DNA of 28,233 nt from a virus: IMG/VR virus record IMGVR_UViG_3300006735_000169, positions 1 to 28,233 of that record. One strand, given 5' to 3'. Position 1 is the first letter of the stretch. Every line of letters starts with the position of its first letter. The position numbers and the translations under genes are program-made. The notes under the pieces are model-generated. The model saw only the letters and a list, made by a program, of their open reading frames with translations, had not been told where the DNA came from and did no database searches. Shown here one piece after another: positions 385-23,912 of the stretch.

Positions 385-1341
385 TTATCTTCTTTGTTCT
401 TGAGGTGGTGTATCCATCTCATGTATTTCCATTCTTTCAAATGCTGCTTTAAAGAAACTCATACGTGTATCACCATTCCTTGCTTTTAAGAAATGTAACA
501 CAAGAGTTCTATCATCCTCTATTATATATCTATCAGGTCCATAGAATCTAATCTTTTGTTTAGCAGGTCGGTTAATACCTATTAAAGTATCAGCATGTTG
601 TAACATAGCATCTGAACCAAATATATCTGATTCTAATACATAGTTACCATACTTACCATTAACTGCTCTGTCTGGATTATCTATATTTCTATTTAATTGT
701 GATAAACATATAAACAAACAAGGATAGTCTCTTTTACATTGAGTAAAAAACTCACCTAATTCAAATAACATATCTAATCTGTTATTTTGATACGGTGCTC
801 TCTTTACTAAAATACTATGATCAAGAGTTATAATAGTTTTTTTACCTTTATGCATATTCATGTAAATATCAACTTGATCTCTCATTTGATTTACAGTCAT
901 TGGTGTAGTTATTTGATCTACAGGACTTTTAATTCTATTTTTAGAATAAGCATGACATTTATCAAATGTTTCTTTATCTAATACAGTTCCTGCACTACAT
1001 AATTCTTTATATGTTTTACCTGTAATAGATGAAAATTCTCTTAATGCTGTAGTTCTACCTACCATTTCAAAACTAAATTCTAAAACTCTAAAGTCTTCAG
1101 CTGGATTAAGAATGAAAGACTCTCTAATAATCTGGTCTTTTATCAAAGTCTTACCCGACCCTGGTCTTCCCCCTATTACTGTAAGAGTATTCCATTCTAA
1201 TCCTTCTGTTATAGCATCATTAAATTTAGGCCATGGAGTTTGTATAGATTTCTCTTTACCACTCTGCCTAGCAAGCATATATTTCAGTGCTTCATTAAAA
1301 GCATGATATTGTCCATCCCATTCTTGTTTAATTTGACTCAT
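385..1341 (-). CDS. DnaB-type replicative helicase (RecA-fold domain only)
   Basis: Replicative DNA helicase core, expected to unwind the phage fork as a hexamer. Walker A GGRPGSGKT lies at residues 57-65, the DnaB 'FSxEM' motif (FSFEM) at 89-93, Walker B TIITLDHS at 169-176 with D174, the sensor motif LSQLNR at 213-218, and the arginine-finger region KARNGDTR at 286-293. At 318 residues it corresponds to the C-terminal ATPase domain and lacks the N-terminal scaffold domain of cellular DnaB (about 450-470 residues). That could mean primase or loader contacts are made differently. Its start overlaps the end of the 1338-1937 gene by 4 bases (ATGA), so the two are probably translationally coupled. 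The motif set makes the family assignment secure; its exact role in this phage is inferred. Confidence 0.93.
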   Translation of the reverse strand: MSQIKQEWDGQYHAFNEALKYMLARQSGKEKSIQTPWPKFNDAITEGLEWNTLTVIGGRPGSGKTLIKDQIIRESFILNPAEDFRVLEFSFEMVGRTTALREFSSITGKTYKELCSAGTVLDKETFDKCHAYSKNRIKSPVDQITTPMTVNQMRDQVDIYMNMHKGKKTIITLDHSILVKRAPYQNNRLDMLFELGEFFTQCKRDYPCLFICLSQLNRNIDNPDRAVNGKYGNYVLESDIFGSDAMLQHADTLIGINRPAKQKIRFYGPDRYIIEDDRTLVLHFLKARNGDTRMSFFKAAFERMEIHEMDTPPQEQRR

Positions 1342-1937
1342 ACTACTTTTTCTTTAAAATGATCATTATTATCAGTTTTTACACCATCACGGATCATATC
1401 ACAGTAGTCAGCTAATTCTGAAATTTTTACTTTATTTTTATCTGATTTACATATAAAATATTGACTTGTTTTCATATACATATAGTCTTTATCTTTATAT
1501 TCATTGACATACATAACTGTTGCATGTGCAACTTCATCCCATGTATAATCATAAGTATCAAAGAACCATCTAAATGCATTTTCTAATGTCTTAACATTTT
1601 GTCTACCTGGTTTACCACTTGGTAATTTACCTGCAGGAAACGCTTCTCTATATACTTTAAGCATTTCTACATAACCTTCACCTAATAATTGTCTACTAGT
1701 TCTTTTTTTAGCAACTCTAAAATATTGATCATATTTAGCACAAATTCTTGTACCTTTTGGTGTCAATGAATACATTGGTCCTTCTTTATATGCTATTAAA
1801 CCTAATTTAATTAATGCTCCTGCATCATATTGTTTGTCTTGTATAGGAAAAGAAATACTATTCTTTATCCCATATAAGAGAAGTAATTGGTTCGGTGTAA
1901 GCTTGTCTTTTAATATTTTCTGGAATAGTTCTAACAT
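1338..1937 (-). CDS. Putative winged-helix replication accessory protein
   Basis: A 199-residue soluble protein lying between a DnaA-domain-IV-like gene and the DnaB-type helicase. The N-terminal 60 residues (LTPNQLLLLYGI ... LIKLGLI ... YSLTPKG) read like a winged-helix domain: helices followed by a 'YSLTPKG' wing. The C-terminal half has an aromatic helix (FRWFFDTYDYTWDEV). The chosen ATG gives an 80-base overlap with the upstream gene; the next Met (MYSLT) would cut through the winged helix, so I keep the long form. By position it could be a helicase loader or replication-initiation partner. That is inference, and I recognise no named family. Confidence 0.72.
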   Translation of the reverse strand: MLELFQKILKDKLTPNQLLLLYGIKNSISFPIQDKQYDAGALIKLGLIAYKEGPMYSLTPKGTRICAKYDQYFRVAKKRTSRQLLGEGYVEMLKVYREAFPAGKLPSGKPGRQNVKTLENAFRWFFDTYDYTWDEVAHATVMYVNEYKDKDYMYMKTSQYFICKSDKNKVKISELADYCDMIRDGVKTDNNDHFKEKVV

Positions 1938-2409
1938 AATTTTTAATATTTTTTTTTAATTCATCATATGCCTCACAAATTTGTTTATCATTTATTTCTA
2001 ATAAACCTTCTATCTGTTTAATACTATGTATTACACTTGCATGATGTTTATTAATATGTGCCCCTGTGTATTGTAATGTAAAACCCATTTTATTACACAT
2101 AAAGCAAAAGAGTTGTTTAAATATTACAAATTCTCTTTTTCTACACTCTTTTCCAAGAGTTCTCCATCCTTTATATTCTGGATATAATGTACGCATTGTA
2201 CCTAATACTAATTTTTCAAGTATTTCTATTGTTTTAATTTGATGAGCTGATTTCATTGCTTGAATTTCATCTTCCCATTTTTTAACATCTACAACGATGT
2301 TTGATTTATCACTTATAAGTATACTAATATTTTTTTCATACTTTGATTCAAATCTGTTTTTAAACTTTTGAATCTCATTAGTCATTTTTAAAATATCTTC
2401 TTGAAACAT
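1858..2409 (-). CDS. Protein with a DnaA domain IV-like DNA-binding helix-turn-helix
   Basis: A 183-residue protein. Residues about 92-135 resemble the C-terminal DNA-binding domain of DnaA: KREFVIFKQLFCFMCNKMG, then a gap, then HHASVIHSIKQI (122-133). The last block matches the DnaA signature in which a His-Thr/Ser-Val-x-His helix contacts the DnaA box. No AAA+ ATPase domain is present; the first 90 residues are a lysine-rich, probably helical or coiled segment. It is first in a three-gene run with the wHTH-like and DnaB-type proteins, and a palindromic promoter-like site lies immediately upstream. A role in recognising the phage origin and recruiting helicase, or in competing with host DnaA, is inferred. 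Family match is by eye, moderately sure. Confidence 0.72.
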   Translation of the reverse strand: MFQEDILKMTNEIQKFKNRFESKYEKNISILISDKSNIVVDVKKWEDEIQAMKSAHQIKTIEILEKLVLGTMRTLYPEYKGWRTLGKECRKREFVIFKQLFCFMCNKMGFTLQYTGAHINKHHASVIHSIKQIEGLLEINDKQICEAYDELKKNIKNYVRTIPENIKRQAYTEPITSLIWDKE

Positions 2410-2480: not shown

Positions 2481-3011
2481 ATGGCTAAAAAGAAAAAAAC
2501 AACCACTAAAGAAACTGAAGAAAAAAAACTACATGCTGATCCTATTACACAAGAGCAAAGAGATAAAGCAGTAGATAAACTTAAACAACTTAAAGAAGGA
2601 AATGTTGTTACAATTCCTGCAGATGCTATTGTAAACGTACCTATATCAGGTAGTTTTAGAAAAGCAATTGAAGGTGTTTTATATTATTTAATGGAACCAT
2701 TAAATGCAAGTCAAATTATAGCATCAATGTCTAAAGTAAAAACTAACTTTGAAGATCTTGAACCAGAACAAGTTAATGATACGGATAGAGCTATATGGTG
2801 TATTATGTCACTACTCTCTGAACTTCATTGGCAAGCTGCTCAACAAGGTAAAGCAGTAGAAACAGATCAAAAAATTGATGAAACTATTTCCACTATGATA
2901 GCTGGAATAGATGGTGCTACTGAAGAATTTGCAAAAAAAGCTCAAGAGGTAAAATCTAAAATTACAAAAGACAAGCCGGGAGAATTAAGATTAAAAAAAG
3001 ATAAATCTTAA
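2481..3011 (+). CDS. Hypothetical Lys-rich, helical protein (isolated plus-strand gene)
   Basis: A 176-residue protein and the only rightward gene in the leftward block. It begins with a lysine tract (MAKKKKTTTKETEEKK), has a central hydrophobic helical part (about residues 55-120, e.g. FRKAIEGVLYYLMEPLNAS and WCIMSLLSELHWQ), and ends in a charged, probably coiled tail. No catalytic motif, signal peptide or membrane helix is evident. It has its own promoter-like site at 2426-2457 and its stop overlaps the convergent oxygenase gene by 4 bases. Its orientation matches the late genes, which might mean expression with virion proteins; that is a guess from strand alone. Confidence 0.8.
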   Translation: MAKKKKTTTKETEEKKLHADPITQEQRDKAVDKLKQLKEGNVVTIPADAIVNVPISGSFRKAIEGVLYYLMEPLNASQIIASMSKVKTNFEDLEPEQVNDTDRAIWCIMSLLSELHWQAAQQGKAVETDQKIDETISTMIAGIDGATEEFAKKAQEVKSKITKDKPGELRLKKDKS

Positions 3012-3736
3012 GACACCCAACCTGTTATTGATAATCTAGGTTTTTTAACACCAATAGATACTGGAGAAACAAAATGAGGAATTCCTATTCTATTTTCTTC
3101 AGGTAAATTCATTAATGTTAATGCTAATCTATTATAAGATGATAGAACTACTTTTTTTATTGTTCTCCAATCATCTTCTAATAAATATAAATTGCCTCCA
3201 TATTGTGGTTTCCAATTTTTAGATAAACTATATACAAAGTTTATAGTTCCTTTATCTATATCATGATGAGGAGATAAAAATTGTCCTGATGTATATCTAC
3301 TACAAAATACTTCTCCAGACATTGACATGTCTATTTTTGTAATATCTTTTATGAATTTCTTAAAATTATCACTTTTTAAGAATTCTTTATATTCACATTC
3401 TAAACAATTACAATTTTCTGCATGATTTATACTTCTATCAAATATATATGTAAATAATTCTTCACCAAAATCTTTATATGCATGCATATATAAATTATTT
3501 ATTTTATTATCATTTTTTGGTAATTTTCTAATTACTTTCATATTATCTCCAGATAATGATTGTATGCAATAAGAAGTATACCACCAATCTTCTGGCATTT
3601 CAAATGCTAAAAAGTTATATAACTTATCTGCAGATCTTCTATCTAAAAAATTTTCAATAATCACTGTTTTGTTCTTTTTAAAATCAGATCTTAATTTCTT
3701 TATATTTAATTTATTATTTATTTTAAAATTTTCCAT
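3008..3736 (-). CDS. 2-oxoglutarate/Fe(II)-dependent oxygenase (prolyl-hydroxylase-like fold)
   Basis: A 242-residue enzyme with the jelly-roll iron-binding triad of 2OG-Fe(II) oxygenases. HxD is at H157-D159 (SPHHDID), the distal His is H221 (IPHFVSPVS), and a 2OG-binding Arg is at about R234 (PRLSITGW). The strand GGNLYLL (180-186) is typical of the prolyl-4-hydroxylase-type branch. Such enzymes hydroxylate proteins or nucleic-acid bases; the substrate cannot be read from the sequence. A small Cys cluster (C109, C111, C114) is extra. It overlaps the 3736-4119 gene by one base and converges on the 2481-3011 gene. 2OG oxygenases are common in marine phages, and a role in modifying virion proteins or DNA is only inferred. 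Confidence 0.85.
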   Translation of the reverse strand: MENFKINNKLNIKKLRSDFKKNKTVIIENFLDRRSADKLYNFLAFEMPEDWWYTSYCIQSLSGDNMKVIRKLPKNDNKINNLYMHAYKDFGEELFTYIFDRSINHAENCNCLECEYKEFLKSDNFKKFIKDITKIDMSMSGEVFCSRYTSGQFLSPHHDIDKGTINFVYSLSKNWKPQYGGNLYLLEDDWRTIKKVVLSSYNRLALTLMNLPEENRIGIPHFVSPVSIGVKKPRLSITGWVS

Positions 3737-5610: not shown

Positions 5611-6717
5611 TTAATTTTTTAAAGGATTATAATACTTAATTTTATCTTTATCAAAAGTAGATAGTGCGGAGTTTACCCATTTTACATCCTGAGTATTTTT
5701 ATAACACAATATATGGCAAGTAGCAGTCTCACTTGGATTTAGGCGCAGCAAACGTCCTATTCTTTGTGCTGACTTACGTTCATTACCATATGCATGCATT
5801 ATAATACCTTGACGTAAATTAGGTATAGTAACTCCTTCACTTAATTGTAATACACAAGACAGCTTATCTATTCTACCATCACTGAATAACTGTAAGTTAT
5901 CTTCTGATGCAATATTTTTAGAATGATAGCTGTGTTGACACATTCTATCAGCTTGTGCTTGTGTATTAGCAAAGACAATACATTTCTCACCAACATTTCT
6001 TATCAAACCTTTAGCATATTCTTCTTTGGTTGGATAGTCCATCATGGATTTCATACGCATAATAGATAAGAATTGTCTTTGTTTTGGTACTTGAGCATCA
6101 CCCAAAGCACCTGTATAGTACTGATAATCAGCTAGTTCTGAAGTATACCATGTTCTTCCATCTTTAGTAGATTTTTTAACATTCTTTACTTTAGATAATT
6201 CTAATTCATGTACTATAATTTGATAGTCATTAAGTATGTTACTGTCAGCTGCATCATCTACACTAAATGTGTATCTAACAGGACAATATCTATTAACCAT
6301 TTTAAGTTTCTCTCCTGATTTAGGTGGTGTACCAGTTAAACCTAGTATTCTACCTTTAAATTCATTTAAGAAATCTTCATGACTTTCTAATAAACTATGA
6401 CATTCATCTAAATAGACTGTATCATAATCATTTGCTTTCTTTTTATTTAATGATAAATATGTTGTAAACTCTATGTGATTTAATAAAGTTTGTTTACCCA
6501 TTAAATTTATCTCATTGACCCATGAGTCTTTAACAGACCATTTTGGAACAACAACTAAAACTCTTGTGAAAGCATCAAAGAGTTTTTCTAAATGATATAG
6601 TGCAATTCTAGTTTTACCAACACCCATTGATATTGCTAGTGTGCCTCTTTCATATTCAAGTGCTTTAGATAAAGCCTTAAGTTGTACTTCTTCTCTTGAT
6701 ATTTCTTTCACTTCCAT
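5611..6717 (-). CDS. SF2 DNA helicase (SNF2/SSL2-like)
   Basis: A 368-residue superfamily 2 helicase or translocase. Visible motifs: motif I MGVGKT (31-36), motif II DECH (104-107), motif III LTGTP (127-131), a second RecA domain starting near KCIVFANT (245-252), and motif VI SAQRIGRLLR (316-325). It is compact for the family, with little beyond the two RecA domains. Similar helicases recur in crAss-like and other Bacteroidota phages near replication genes. It could remodel forks or recombination intermediates. It directly follows the 6718-6981 gene with no gap, so it is in the same leftward operon. Confidence 0.92.
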   Translation of the reverse strand: MEVKEISREEVQLKALSKALEYERGTLAISMGVGKTRIALYHLEKLFDAFTRVLVVVPKWSVKDSWVNEINLMGKQTLLNHIEFTTYLSLNKKKANDYDTVYLDECHSLLESHEDFLNEFKGRILGLTGTPPKSGEKLKMVNRYCPVRYTFSVDDAADSNILNDYQIIVHELELSKVKNVKKSTKDGRTWYTSELADYQYYTGALGDAQVPKQRQFLSIMRMKSMMDYPTKEEYAKGLIRNVGEKCIVFANTQAQADRMCQHSYHSKNIASEDNLQLFSDGRIDKLSCVLQLSEGVTIPNLRQGIIMHAYGNERKSAQRIGRLLRLNPSETATCHILCYKNTQDVKWVNSALSTFDKDKIKYYNPLKN

Positions 6718-6981
6718 TTAATTTAAACTTATGTCATTATCTTTTAATAGATCATATATTTCTGAATTAAATCTTACTTGATCTATTTCATTAAATCTTT
6801 TTTCCATTTCTTTAAACTCACTGTCACCCATAGTTCTCATTTCCTGTCCGTCAACTTCATTTACTATGTGTAGAAATGCTTCCTGATCTATCATCTCAGG
6901 ATTTTTTGATATTATATGTGCAACCTCTAATAATTGCTCTGGTTTTAAATTGTTTGCTAAATATTTTAATAATTCTATCAT
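6718..6981 (-). CDS. Hypothetical helical acidic protein
   Basis: An 87-residue, mostly helical acidic protein (MIELLKYLANNLKPEQLLEVAHII...). Its start overlaps the HNH gene by 4 bases and its stop abuts the helicase gene. No motif recognised. The 'LKPEQLLEVAHIISKNPEM' repeat of short helices may be a protein-binding module; that is a guess. Confidence 0.75.
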   Translation of the reverse strand: MIELLKYLANNLKPEQLLEVAHIISKNPEMIDQEAFLHIVNEVDGQEMRTMGDSEFKEMEKRFNEIDQVRFNSEIYDLLKDNDISLN

Positions 6982-7241
6982 ATTCTTTTAATTGAAAATC
7001 CTAATTCTTCTGCCTCTATTGGATTAAGTTCTATCCAATTGTGACATGTTCTACATACTGATAACCAGGTACTTACATCATTGTGATAAATTCCTCTACC
7101 TTTTTTATGATGTACATCTGTTGATCTGTGAGTGCATCTAGGAAGTGCAGCTTGACACATAGGATATTTACTAAGGAATGTCAGCCTTAGTTTACTATAC
7201 TTTGCATCAAGTTTCTGCATCTTCTTTGATTTTTGTCTCAT
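6978..7241 (-). CDS. HNH endonuclease
   Basis: An 87-residue nuclease of the HNH (beta-beta-alpha-metal) family. Zinc-type cysteines occur at C29 and C36 and again at C63-x-x-C66. The catalytic part reads DVHHKKGRG (42-50), then N54 and CRTCHNWIE (63-71). The short, free-standing form with two Cys pairs is typical of phage HNH proteins next to replication genes, and differs from the long homing HNHs. It may cut DNA during replication, recombination or packaging. Overlaps of 4 bases on both sides tie it to the leftward operon. Confidence 0.88.
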   Translation of the reverse strand: MRQKSKKMQKLDAKYSKLRLTFLSKYPMCQAALPRCTHRSTDVHHKKGRGIYHNDVSTWLSVCRTCHNWIELNPIEAEELGFSIKRI

Positions 7242-7747
7242 CTTACACTTAAATAATTTGTTGGTAATAAACCTTTACCCATAAACTTTAAAATTACATC
7301 TTCATAGTTTATACCTAATTCCTGAAGAGTCATTTTATTTTTATAATCAGGAATATATTCAAAAGGCATCTCATATATTTCTCTACCAAGTTCTGATTTA
7401 GCAAATATACGAAATATTGGCTTAACTTGTTGAAATGCAACATATTGTTTAAGTTCATTTATTGTGTTTTGACCACGTTTCCAAACTTTAGTTATTCTTC
7501 TTTTCTTGTCCCAATGCATTTCAGATATTTCACTAGATTTATACATTCTTAATCCATGTAATATTCTTTTAAATAAAAAATGTTGCTTTGGGTTAAGTTT
7601 AGAATATACTATTTTTTGTCTTGATTCTTTTAAATATAATTGATATTCAGAAAGCATTCCAAGATATGTATATCTAGCTATTTTTCTTTCATCTTCAAAT
7701 TTATCTAAAGTAGGTTTGAGTTTTTGTATTTGTTTTTCACTAAGCAT
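7238..7747 (-). CDS. Hypothetical basic protein
   Basis: A 169-residue, strongly basic protein (KQIQKLKPTLDKFEDERKIARYTYLG...). Helical charged segments and several Trp/Tyr residues (EMHWDKKRRITKVWKRGQ) would fit nucleic-acid binding. No named domain seen. It is the first gene after the terminator at 7777-7804, so a promoter for the HNH-helicase operon may lie in 7748-7776. It overlaps the HNH gene by 4 bases. Confidence 0.78.
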   Translation of the reverse strand: MLSEKQIQKLKPTLDKFEDERKIARYTYLGMLSEYQLYLKESRQKIVYSKLNPKQHFLFKRILHGLRMYKSSEISEMHWDKKRRITKVWKRGQNTINELKQYVAFQQVKPIFRIFAKSELGREIYEMPFEYIPDYKNKMTLQELGINYEDVILKFMGKGLLPTNYLSVR

Positions 7748-7776
7748 TGTTTTAATTATTAAATGAGTTTATAAAA

Positions 7777-7804
7777 GAGAAAAGGGCCCATTCGGACCCT
7801 TCTC
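7777..7804 (-). terminator. Rho-independent terminator after the SSB-like gene
   Basis: Read leftward, a hairpin with arms GAGAAGGG and CCC-TT-TTCTC, inner U-G and two C-G pairs and a 4-base GAAT loop, is followed by TTTTAT. It lies 61 bases beyond the stop of the 7865-8458 gene, the right place to end that transcript. Confidence 0.8.
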
Positions 7805-7822
7805 AACAATAAAAAATTTAAA

Positions 7823-7864
7823 CTAGTATTACTACTAGATGTGATCAGTCAAAGTTGATCAGTC
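7823..7864. repeat. Small hairpin and 9-bp direct repeat after the SSB-like gene
   Basis: CTAGTA (7823-7828) and TACTAG (7833-7838) form a 6-bp hairpin with a 4-base loop. TGATCAGTC occurs twice, at 7842-7850 and 7856-7864, right against the stop codon. These sit between the SSB-like gene and its terminator and might be a protein-binding or mRNA-stability site. Confidence 0.45.
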
Positions 7865-10235: not shown

Positions 10236-11530
10236 AATTATATATTTAAGTGAACATTAATTAAATGATTTACTACAGTTTACTCTGTTAGTTTTCCTAG
10301 TTCACTATTACCGTGTGTGGTTCCTAGGTGAATTTATCCACTTTATATCTGCCCATAAAACCGTTTTAGCTTATCTAATTATGGCACAGTTTAATTTAAA
10401 CAGTTTACTCTGTTATAATAAATAGTACAATGAGTGATGAGCAAACTACTCTCACAATGATGACTCTTGGGTTCCCCCTTTGTATTCATTAACCCTATGC
10501 AGGCGATTAACCTTTATACTCATTATGTTCTCAATATTGATTAGATACCAAGGTTATAACATTGTATAGTTCTGTTAAGAACTTCATAAGTTGTCAGGAC
10601 TTGAAGATGGCCCTATAACATTAATGATTTCAAAGTAAGTTAATAATTAAATTACTTTATTCATCATACTCCAATTGATACACTACATACGATCATACAA
10701 TTATTTAACTGTACGACCACCCATCACAGGCCAATCAGATGCACTAACCCCTTTGAGAAGGTTTATTGTGCGACACTCAGGATACGTTGGTAGCTAGCCG
10801 TTGTATCCCTTGTACTATTATAATTAGGAAGTTTAAGGTGTTTCACCAAGGTTCACTAGACCTTCCAAACCCAGACCTAACAGTTTATAGTCCCTGGTAC
10901 TTTGAGACTTATCACACCAACTAACTCCACACTCCCGAAGGCATATTATAGTTGTAACTAATTTTACAGGTATTATCAATACAGACATTTGCTATCCTGT
11001 ATCAATAGTTAGTTGGTTTAAATGTTGCGGTTACTATGTCTCTTATCCTATAGAGAGAGAACATAAGTATTATATAGACTACAACTAGAGTTAGAACATG
11101 TTAACACTAGTACCATGTGTTAATATACGAGTAACCTCCATGTTCACACCCAATTGAATGTTTATGCTCTAGTTATAGCTATATTATATATTATGGAGTT
11201 AACCATTATATTATTTCTTGCAAGGTGGTATAATGTGGGAATTATGACCACCTACATTCAGTGCAACACACAACACCAAACAGAATTTTATTACCAGTTA
11301 GTGGACAATTCAACCATTATCACAGGGATTGTGTCTAAGTTGAGAATAAAACTCTGTTTAAGTGAGTATATTGTGGATAGTCTAATGAATTTGTCTGGAC
11401 TTTAACCAGTAAGTATACCCTTGACGGAAGATACTTAGAGCTTACCCATGGGCTATCACCTCCATGGTTGGGCTTTGTTACTCTTGAGGAACACACCAAG
11501 CAACAGGGTGCGAGGGAAGACTTAGCTCTG
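10236..11530. ncRNA. Candidate large structured non-coding RNA (about 1.3 kb)
   Basis: There is no credible gene here and GC is visibly above that of the neighbours (many 60-base rows at 40-50%). Stems follow one another along the stretch: 10434-10441/10449-10455, 10508-10514/10550-10556, 10632-10638/10652-10658, 10741-10744/10768-10771, 10780-10808 (GGATAC/GTATCC), 10916-10926/11007-11017 (11 bp), 11029-11035/11130-11136, 11083-11090/11167-11174, 11094-11100/11139-11145, 11101-11107/11117-11123, 11223-11253 (12 bp, one bulge), 11278-11292/11345-11359 (15 bp, one mismatch), 11411-11416/11431-11436 and 11439-11474. Strand is uncertain. Two stems need U-G pairs that exist only if the plus strand is the RNA; one prefers minus. 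No tRNA, rRNA, tmRNA or intron core could be identified. Giant phage RNAs such as GOLLD and ROOL are the closest known concept; an origin or genome-end region is the alternative. Confidence 0.5.
10275..10415. repeat. Direct repeat of a 16-base palindromic element
   Basis: ACAGTTTACTCTGTTA occurs at 10275-10290 and again at 10400-10415, 125 bases apart. Each copy is itself an inverted repeat (ACAG...CTGT around a 6-base TTTACT loop), so it could be a repeated RNA hairpin or a duplicated protein-binding site at the left edge of the structured region. Confidence 0.6.
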
Positions 11531-21427: not shown

Positions 21428-21730
21428 ATGATAAAAGAAAATGTTAAAAACTATAAAGTAATACCTATTGGTAAAAGAATATTAGTAAAACCAGTTGAAA
21501 AGGTAGAACAAACTAATTCAGGAATTATTCTTCCTGATTCTCAAGTTCAACAAAAACCTCAAGGTACTATTGTTGCAAGAGGTCCAGAAGTATTTGATGA
21601 TCTTCAAATTGGAGATTTTGTACAATGGATTATTAATATGTCAGTTGATGATAAAGAATTTATTCACAATGGAGAACGTCATATTTTATTAACTCAGGAT
21701 GCAATAGTTTGTAAATTAGAAGATGTATAA
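21428..21730 (+). CDS. GroES-like co-chaperonin
   Basis: A 100-residue protein the length of Cpn10. Signature pieces are all there: VIPIGKRILVKPVE, TNSGIILPDSQVQQKPQGTI (the mobile loop and following strand), VARGPEV, IGDFVQW and HILLTQDAIVCKLE. It should cap the host GroEL chamber to fold phage proteins, as T4 gp31 does for its capsid protein. It sits immediately before the large terminase (8-base overlap), in the morphogenesis genes. Whether it replaces or only supplements host GroES cannot be told. Confidence 0.85.
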   Translation: MIKENVKNYKVIPIGKRILVKPVEKVEQTNSGIILPDSQVQQKPQGTIVARGPEVFDDLQIGDFVQWIINMSVDDKEFIHNGERHILLTQDAIVCKLEDV

Positions 21731-23912
21731 AAAAGTTCCTACATATAAAAATGGTGAATGGGACTACAAAGAATTTAAAGAAAAAGAAGACTTTGTAAAT
21801 TTTATTTTAACACTTTTTAAAGAGCCAGGGCAGTATCAGTTTGATGAAACTGCCCTTCTTTTTAATGAACAAGCTAGAATATTTAATACTCAAGGTTATT
21901 ATTGTAATAAACCTTTTAGATCTAAAGATTATATAAAGTATTGGAATTCTGAAAAAGAAAAATGTCAAGAAGGTGTTTTATATTATGGTGAGAAAAATAT
22001 ATTTTATCTTACAAGAGATTATTATATGTGGTTAAATTTCTTACCAATCTTTGATAAAGAAGAAAAAAAGTACGGATTTGCTAAAGTAAGGGATGCACAG
22101 TATCATATGGCTTTATATGAATTACTTGCAGAATTACATTATAGACATGTAGCTATTCTTAAAAAACGTCAGATAGCTTCTTCTTATTTTCATATGGCTA
22201 AAGTATTAAATCAATTTTGGTTTGAAGAAGGATCTATATGTAAAATAGGTGCATCACTTAAAGATTACATAAATGATAAAGGATCTTGGAAATTTTTAGA
22301 AGAATATAAAACATTTCTCAATGAACATACTGCTTGGTATAGACCTACTAATCCAGCTAAAGTATTATTATGGGAACAAAAAATTGAAGTTAGAGTTAAC
22401 AATAGAAAAACACATAAAGGTTTAATGTCAAAAATTCAAGGTGCTTCTTTTGAAAAAAATCCAACAACTGGTGTTGGTGGACCTTGTACTTATTTCTTTC
22501 ATGAAGAGGCTGGTATTGCTCCTAAAATGGATCAAACATTTGAGTATATTAGACCTGCAATGACATCAGGTATGATAACTACTGGTATGTTTATTGCAGC
22601 TGGTTCTGTTGGTGATCTTGATCAATGTAATCCATTAAAACAAATGATATTAAATCCAGAAGGAAATGATATATATGCAGTAGAAACAAACTTAATGGAT
22701 GAAAAAGGAACTATAGGTAAAGCAGGTTTATTTATTCCTGAACAATGGTCTATGCCTCCTCATATAGATAAGTACGGAAATTCATTAGTTGAGCAAGCTC
22801 TCAATGCTATAAAAGAAGAAAGAGCACAATGGAAAAAAGATTTAAACCCAGAACAATATCAATTAAGAATATCACAAAAACCAATAGATATTGCAGAAGC
22901 TTTTGCATATAGAAAAGAAGCAATATTTCCACAAGCTATAATATCAAGACAACTTAAAAGAATTGAAGAAAAAGAATATGCATATGAATTTGTAAAATTA
23001 GAAAGAACATCTAATAGTATTAAAGCTAGTAAGTCTAATAAGCTACCTATTTTTAATTTCCCTGTTAATAAAAAATTAGAAGATAAATCTGGAGTATTAG
23101 TAGTTTGGGAGAAGCCTGTTAAAAATCCTTCATTTGGTATGTACTATGCTTCTATTGACCCTGTATCAGAAGGTAAAACAACTACATCAGATTCTTTATG
23201 TAGTATATTTGTTTATAAAAATCCTATTGAAGTAACTAGACAAAGTAAAGATCAACCTGAAGCATTTATAGAAGGTGATAAAATTGTAGCATCTTGGTGT
23301 GGTAGATATGATGATATAAACAAAACACATGAACAATTAGAATTAATTATTGAATGGTATAATGCTTGGACATTAGTTGAGAATAATATATCTCTTTTTA
23401 TCCAATACATGATATCTAAAAAGAAACAAAAATATTTAGTACCAAAACAACAGATAGTATTTTTAAAAGACTTAGGATCTAATCAAAATGTTTTTCAAGA
23501 ATATGGTTGGAAAAATACTGGTACACTATTTAAAAGTCATCTAATATCTTATGCTATTGAGTTTGTTAGAGAAGAGATAAATCAAGATACAGATGAGCAT
23601 GGAAATGTATTAAAAACAAATTTAGGAGTTGAAAGAATTCCAGACAAAATGTTATTAACAGAAATGATGCAATACTTCCCTGGATTAAACGTGGATAGAC
23701 TTGTAGCATTTTCTGCATTAATTGCATTTGCTAGGATACAACAGTCTAATAGAGGCTATATTAAGCATAAAGAAGAAGATATGTCAAGAGATAACTTGGA
23801 AAAATCACAAAATTTGTATAAATTATCTATGAGGCCTTTTAAAAATTTAGCTAGAAAAAAAAGACTTGGATCTACTAAATTTAAGAAGTCTGCATTTAAA
23901 AATATTAAATAA
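21723..23912 (+). CDS. terL: Large terminase subunit (packaging ATPase/nuclease)
   Basis: A 729-residue packaging motor. The ATPase domain has a Walker-A-like LKKRQIASSY (146-155) and Walker B TYFFHEEAG (256-264) with the catalytic E pair at 261-262, then a motif III-like AAGSVGD. The nuclease domain begins at YYASIDPVSEGK (D479) and shares the RNase H-like fold; RLVAFSALIAFAR lies near the end. Walker A departs from the usual G-K-T/S, with Ala-Ser-Ser in place of Gly-Lys-Ser/Thr. It follows the GroES-like gene and precedes the portal. Function is packaging of DNA into proheads through the portal. Confidence 0.93.
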   Translation: MYKKVPTYKNGEWDYKEFKEKEDFVNFILTLFKEPGQYQFDETALLFNEQARIFNTQGYYCNKPFRSKDYIKYWNSEKEKCQEGVLYYGEKNIFYLTRDYYMWLNFLPIFDKEEKKYGFAKVRDAQYHMALYELLAELHYRHVAILKKRQIASSYFHMAKVLNQFWFEEGSICKIGASLKDYINDKGSWKFLEEYKTFLNEHTAWYRPTNPAKVLLWEQKIEVRVNNRKTHKGLMSKIQGASFEKNPTTGVGGPCTYFFHEEAGIAPKMDQTFEYIRPAMTSGMITTGMFIAAGSVGDLDQCNPLKQMILNPEGNDIYAVETNLMDEKGTIGKAGLFIPEQWSMPPHIDKYGNSLVEQALNAIKEERAQWKKDLNPEQYQLRISQKPIDIAEAFAYRKEAIFPQAIISRQLKRIEEKEYAYEFVKLERTSNSIKASKSNKLPIFNFPVNKKLEDKSGVLVVWEKPVKNPSFGMYYASIDPVSEGKTTTSDSLCSIFVYKNPIEVTRQSKDQPEAFIEGDKIVASWCGRYDDINKTHEQLELIIEWYNAWTLVENNISLFIQYMISKKKQKYLVPKQQIVFLKDLGSNQNVFQEYGWKNTGTLFKSHLISYAIEFVREEINQDTDEHGNVLKTNLGVERIPDKMLLTEMMQYFPGLNVDRLVAFSALIAFARIQQSNRGYIKHKEEDMSRDNLEKSQNLYKLSMRPFKNLARKKRLGSTKFKKSAFKNIK

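Follow-up and report, generated by a model that had tools for sequence, protein, structure and literature searches.

How a phage sets its replicative helicase onto DNA when the DnaA-like protein encoded in the same operon carries no ATPase domain is the question raised by a locus in a 28,233-bp virus record (IMG/VR IMGVR_UViG_3300006735_000169), the whole of which is referred to here as the window. The original prediction placed three overlapping genes at 385-2409, and all three reading frames were confirmed there; on the minus strand, 1858-2409 comes first, followed by 1338-1937 and then 385-1341, with overlaps of 80 nt and then 4 nt. They encode a DnaA domain IV-like protein of 183 aa, a winged-helix protein of 199 aa, and a DnaB-family replicative helicase of 318 aa.

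On the relatedness of its terminase large subunit (window 21723-23912) in a sequence search, the source phage is a marine crAss-like phage, a relative of the gut crAss phages of the order Crassvirales: 121 phage records were matched, all 12 matches listed are crAss-like (24.6-26% identity to these 12, E values down to 3e-42), and the host counts include Flavobacterium phages too. When the helicase was searched, gut crAss-like phages again ranked first, mostly at 28-36% identity. Much closer relatives of the three operon proteins were found in IMG/VR, at 7, 80, and 70 loci, the search for relatives having taken the best 80 of 593 in that scan and the best 80 of 577 in another; the alignments (A1, A2 and A5) were built from non-redundant selections of these loci. 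Fifteen long relatives were selected for length, not for known completeness. Two loci (L004 and L005) lie on a single IMG/VR contig (3300030098_004828, 245,646 bp) as non-identical operon copies ~125 kb apart, and this contig is probably two related phage genomes fused by assembly.

The product of 385-1341 is, as had been proposed, a DnaB-type helicase without the N-terminal domain. Pfam DnaB_C (PF03796) matches residues 42-293 (1.5e-17), the Walker A motif GRPGSGKT is at residue 58, and the RecA-like C-terminal domain has its motifs intact. The DnaB N-terminal domain (PF00772) found no match in the window helicase, in which only residues 1-41 precede DnaB_C, nor in any of the 15 long relatives. 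The match to the best PHROG (phrog_19, DnaB-like helicase, 2e-30) starts only at position 307 of 621, and the helicase also matches phrog_243, a short DnaB-like family. In the relatives, a primase, RusA, and a Sak4-like (AAA_24) P-loop protein follow downstream in the same operon. A PolB-like gene was detected in 15/15 long relatives at E ≤ 0.001 (2 of them above the Pfam cut-off), and a profile search for PolA matched none of the 15.

The operon is preceded by a promoter of the host type, a Bacteroidota-type -7 box, TATCTTTA, at 2431-2438 on the minus strand, and a divergent copy at 2450-2457 on the plus strand is placed for the neighboring gene at 2481-3011; the consensus behind this identification is what we take to be the Bacteroidota type. 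Most of 48 DnaA-like genes have a TAT-TTTG-like box ahead of them. An operator role was considered for the inverted repeat AAAGATAC/GTATCTTT between 1858-2409 and 2481-3011 and rejected, as in relatives it proves to be two promoter boxes of the Bacteroidota type, set back to back and facing outward. The neighbor at 2481-3011 (176 aa, plus strand) is divergently transcribed and syntenic with the operon, and its homologues flank the operon even where the DnaA-like gene is absent; its product matched no PHROG, and no Pfam family scored better than E 0.06. An Rfam search of the window returned no match. Between this neighbor and a NinB-like gene, the window carries a 2OG-Fe(II) oxygenase gene at 3008-3736 (1.7e-10).

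The first protein of the operon (1858-2409) had been described as a DnaA domain IV-like helix-turn-helix protein without an AAA+ module, and the family match, the fold, and the absence of a Walker A motif agree on this. As a single sequence, it matches Bac_DnaA_C at 2.3e-6 and 28 bits, just below the Pfam cut-off of 31.5 bits, and all 32 aligned relatives match the same family at E ≤ 0.01 (best 3.3e-10). Full DnaA models are matched by most of the 32 relatives (26 of them for the commonest model), and in the window protein such a match spans only the C-terminal, domain IV part. The AlphaFold model has a mean pLDDT of 73.5, rising to ~90 across residues 60-150, and consists of an N-terminal helix, a domain at ~59-159, and a poorly predicted C-terminal stretch of ~25 aa. 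Structure prediction of this product recovered the DnaA domain IV fold: in VIA comparisons, it superimposes on the DNA-binding domain of Mycobacterium tuberculosis DnaA with DNA (3pvp_B; Z 14.8, 1.7 Å, 93 residues) and on Escherichia coli domain IV with its box (1j1v_A; Z 13.9, 1.9 Å, 91 residues), the six top rows are all DnaA, and the next, unrelated row has a Z of 6.2. A Walker A motif was found in 0/32 aligned relatives, and the AAA+ domain III (PF00308) in neither the window nor any of the 15 long relatives. An N-terminal segment, FESKYEKNISILISDKS, was considered as a remnant of the DnaA Walker B region and rejected; its HMMER alignment reached only 4.9 and 0.8 bits, which is not evidence of such a leftover. 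By family match and predicted fold, the 183-aa protein is a real DnaA domain IV detached from the ATPase domain.

Residue equivalences to E. coli DnaA were taken from a HMMER alignment to 1j1v, and the residues compared are those that we take to contact DNA in the E. coli protein (R399, Q408, D433, H434, and T435). The equivalents of R399 and H434 are invariant in 32/32 rows, and that of Q408 is Gln in 28/32. The T435 equivalent is Ala or Ser in all 32 rows, and the D433 equivalent is His in 19, Asp in 6, Asn in 6, and Gly in 1. These changes suggest that the specificity has shifted and does not simply reproduce that for the host box, and the protein probably has a target sequence of its own.

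The second protein (1338-1937) had been predicted to be a winged-helix protein, and the structure model bears this out for its N-terminal part. Taken alone, the 199-aa sequence gave only a weak winged-helix match (0.003), and none of the PHROGs fell below E 0.22. Modeled from 72 sequences (pLDDT 88.4), it divides into a MarR-like winged helix at residues 1-78 (VIA, 2fxa_A: Z 10.9, 2.6 Å, 77 residues) and a separate helical domain at residues 79-187, which has no recognized fold and is more conserved than the winged helix. Of the 20 tail types listed from 72 rows, nearly all end in six residues that fit the pattern [FY]x[ED]x[VI]V, and 0/72 aligned relatives have a Walker A motif. When Foldseek and VIA were aimed at the helical half, with the question of a DDBH2 fold, the result rows were occupied by the winged-helix half; a PDB sequence search with the family profile gave no lead (best E 0.38).

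Profile comparisons connect this protein to the Crassvirales. In hhalign, the winged-helix family aligned with gp86 of crAss001 at a probability of 98 over 162 columns; the homology covers the helical domain, and gp86 sits immediately upstream of gp85, which is annotated as the replicative helicase. The Kolpuevirus protein annotated as a replisome organizer ("frurule"), whose gene lies upstream of DnaB, aligned at a probability of 96. In a Foldseek search of viral models, the top three matches were crAss-like proteins, the best of them from Cellulophaga phage phi14:2 (6e-7). These profile alignments relate the winged-helix protein to the Crassvirales replisome organizer, the crAss001 gp86 family. 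The "ScpB" protein of cr125_1, encoded upstream of its helicase, was rejected as a homologue (hhalign probability 0.2), and it may still be an analogue.

The likeness of the N-terminal domain to MarR proteins raises the alternative that the protein is a MarR-like transcription factor and that its adjacency to the helicase is regulatory. We consider this very unlikely: winged helices are generic, the protein has in addition the more conserved helical domain and the conserved tail, a relative carries the replisome organizer annotation, and the linkage of its gene to the helicase is nearly absolute. Of the 201 loci with enough downstream DNA, 197 have the helicase immediately after the winged-helix gene. 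One of the four exceptions (L106) has an insertion of ~2.6 kb; the other three are crAss001, Kolpuevirus, and a Leptolyngbya phage, in which the helicase misses the profile yet adjoins the winged-helix gene or lies one small gene off, these diverged helicases being recognized by annotation in two cases and by PHROG in one. Both the winged-helix gene and DnaB_C are present in 15/15 long relatives. As far as gene content and order can tell, the winged-helix protein and the helicase are a conserved unit across crAss-like phages.

The DnaA-like gene follows a different pattern. It is present in 9/15 long relatives and missing from 6/15 while the winged-helix/helicase pair persists, and it was found in 78 of the 186 loci having more than 650 nt upstream; by scan, the counts are 76/110 in the first three and 0/71 in the fourth. 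On a helicase tree of 68 distinct rows (44 with the gene and 24 without), from which 14 of 82 distinct helicases were omitted as shorter than 300 aa or not covered in their upstream region, its presence needs 4 changes, of which at least 3 are forced by well-supported branches. In the clade that lacks the DnaA-like gene, the gene abutting the winged-helix gene is often one for a uracil-DNA glycosylase, and in two loci that retain both (L085 and L106), the stretch upstream of the DnaA-like gene reads by eye as a glycosylase C-terminus. Another crAss-like relative (L054) encodes a GroEL-type chaperonin of 546 aa (6184-7824; Cpn60_TCP1 6e-78) ~1.5 kb ahead of its winged-helix gene. Placed on this tree, the DnaA-IV gene is accessory, having been gained or lost about four times. 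The idea of a three-gene minimal initiation set survives in part: the genes form a phage replication operon, but the set is not fixed, and some lineages lack the DnaA-like gene.

A DnaA initiator binds TTATNCACA boxes clustered at an origin; such boxes number 4 in the window against 6.1 expected, and 11 against 11.6 when one mismatch is allowed. Neither the window nor three long relatives showed an excess or cluster of DnaA boxes or an iteron array, either of which would have made an obvious origin, and the true site may differ from the sequences searched. The one k-mer cluster looked up in each of three relatives (G001, G005, and G010) proved to be part of the repetitive coding sequence for a large protein. 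In G001 (70980-74462) and G010 (28016-30871), large proteins contain degenerate repeats that encode many short similar units. A 16-bp element, ACAGTTTACTCTGTTA, occurs at window positions 10275-10290 and 10400-10415 in a non-coding strip of ~0.9 kb between the transcription arms. It is also found in relatives: 25 of 235 loci have its 14-bp core, once each, and relatives differ by exchanges of the DNA that flanks the element. None of the DnaA-lacking loci examined has it; by hand count, it is absent too from 10 contigs that have the DnaA-like gene, and the element is therefore only a lead. On its position and distribution, we regard ACAGTTTACTCTGTTA as a candidate origin, promoter, or recombination site.

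These observations bear on what the DnaA-IV protein does. It may act outside the start of replication, as a regulator of its own promoter or as a blocker at host DnaA boxes, with its place in the operon reflecting timing. Several findings fit this role, which we hold to be possible though somewhat less than probable: the repeated gain or loss of a gene without which the pair persists, its position as the first gene behind the operon promoter, the lack of a box cluster in the phage DNA searched, and the conserved R399 and H434 equivalents, which would permit box-like recognition. The altered T435 and D433 equivalents speak for a different specificity instead, the DNA-contact roles of these residues being those assumed above, and the overlap of the DnaA-IV and winged-helix genes suggests a common function. 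We treat the role of origin marker and that of regulation or interference with host DnaA as nearly equal readings. A more specific version of the former divides the job of DnaA in two, with the detached domain IV recognizing the origin and an ATPase-free winged-helix partner melting the DNA and placing the helicase, no AAA+ protein being involved; the recognition sequence could be new, possibly ACAGTTTACTCTGTTA. This version we think doubtful.

The original prediction also held that the loader ATPase is missing or unrecognized. Profile searches of the 15 long relatives detected no DnaC/IstB (PF01695), no DciA (PF05258), and no DnaD/DnaB_2 protein (PF07261, DDBH2), the last of these being absent also from the 25 families listed, of 36, for the winged-helix family; control genomes were positive in each of the searches for DnaC/IstB, DnaA AAA+, DciA, DnaB_2, and the DnaB N-terminal domain. 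The part of the claim that stands is the absence of these loader types and of a DnaA AAA+ domain in the 15 relatives. Against it, all 15 encode a MoxR-like AAA+ ATPase, in a region that falls outside the window, which ends 384 nt beyond the helicase. In L023, the one relative measured, this gene lies downstream of the helicase at a distance of ~5.6 kb. When G001 was scanned for Walker A motifs, the scan retrieved only the helicase, the Sak4-like protein, the MoxR-like AAA+ protein, and one likely chance match.

The MoxR-like protein, which would be the "AAA domain ATPase" in the replication block of crAss phages, could be the loader, in which case the winged-helix protein would only recognize DNA or couple helicase to primase. 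Its surroundings speak against this: adjacent MoxR and VWA genes are the arrangement of MoxR-VWA chaperones, and the phage gene likewise adjoins a VWA (DUF2201) gene; nor was any similarity to DnaC/IstB detected. In favor of such a loader are its presence in every long relative, the scarcity of other P-loop proteins in G001, and the naming of an AAA+ ATPase, in one study (PMC7886860), among four highly conserved crAss-like replication genes. On balance, we rate this explanation as unlikely.

The reading that we prefer, and to which we give about as much credence as doubt, is that these genes head the phage's replication operon, the winged-helix protein loading the helicase without an ATPase and the DnaA-IV protein, where present, directing the pair or regulating the operon. 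The N-terminal domain of the winged-helix protein would bind phage DNA or a replication structure, the C-terminal domain and/or the tail would hold the helicase, and the helicase would be set onto single-stranded DNA without ATP hydrolysis, in the manner of a replisome organizer, lambda P, or DciA. The DnaA-IV protein would recognize a double-stranded site and either guide the pair there or regulate the operon; it would itself be unable to melt DNA or to oligomerize via the DnaA AAA+ route. Fork progress would then rely on a DnaG-type primase and PolB, both encoded by the phage. We infer ATPase-free loading by the pair from analogy, and because the fold of the helical domain was not recognized, it is the gene context that suggests a helicase-binding role for the winged-helix protein. 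Counting against this mechanism are the 6 long relatives that manage without the DnaA-IV gene, the lack of a DnaA-box cluster or iteron array in the window and three long relatives, and the conserved AAA+ ATPase of all 15, which could be the loader.

Loading of a helicase without an ATPase has precedents. Phage lambda P is such a loader, and the proposed system would share with it the delivery of a DnaB-type helicase without an AAA+ domain. The same likeness would hold for DciA, for which ATPase-free loading is already described (PMC5109545), but no DciA sequence match was found in the 15 long relatives, and the putative helicase-binding part of the winged-helix protein has no recognized fold. 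With a MoxR-like ATPase in all 15 relatives and ATPase-free loading already known, the claim of a missing loader is only half right.

The pairing of a winged-helix replisome organizer with DnaB is itself already known in the Crassvirales. The genes that Yutin et al. (PMC7886860) give for crAss-like phages include Rep_Org, DnaB, DnaG primase, and an AAA ATPase, and we equate their Rep_Org with the winged-helix family, provisionally, via the Kolpuevirus annotation only. The gut members crAss001 (gp86-gp85) and Kolpuevirus share with the marine clade a homologous winged-helix protein beside a DnaB-type helicase, and in the Crassvirales block a primase and a Sak4-like protein likewise follow downstream, but these gut members have no DnaA-like gene in front; the gene added by the marine clade is a variant of the known arrangement. 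The added protein has the fold of bacterial DnaA domain IV, its signature helix-turn-helix, and the invariant R399 and H434 equivalents, and differs from bacterial DnaA in lacking AAA+ domain III and Walker A and in its altered recognition-helix residues. Manatee Spring podovirus ctfjg026 encodes a 189-aa Bac_DnaA_C protein, which was not seen before a winged-helix/helicase pair. According to another study (PMC6006769), some TnpA-REP transposases carry a C-terminal Bac_DnaA_C domain, whose target sequence the authors suggest is probably new; these too place DnaA domain IV outside DnaA, and they were not seen to precede such a pair. In the open-access literature, searched with a limited set of terms, we recognized no paper on crAss-like phages that describes a free-standing gene for DnaA domain IV.

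The crAss-like phages are among the most abundant phages, and in the literature covered we did not find the start of their replication established. The two-gene core, present in every long relative tested, now has a structure model and a conserved C-terminal tail to mutate, and the lineages with and without the DnaA-IV gene offer a natural contrast.
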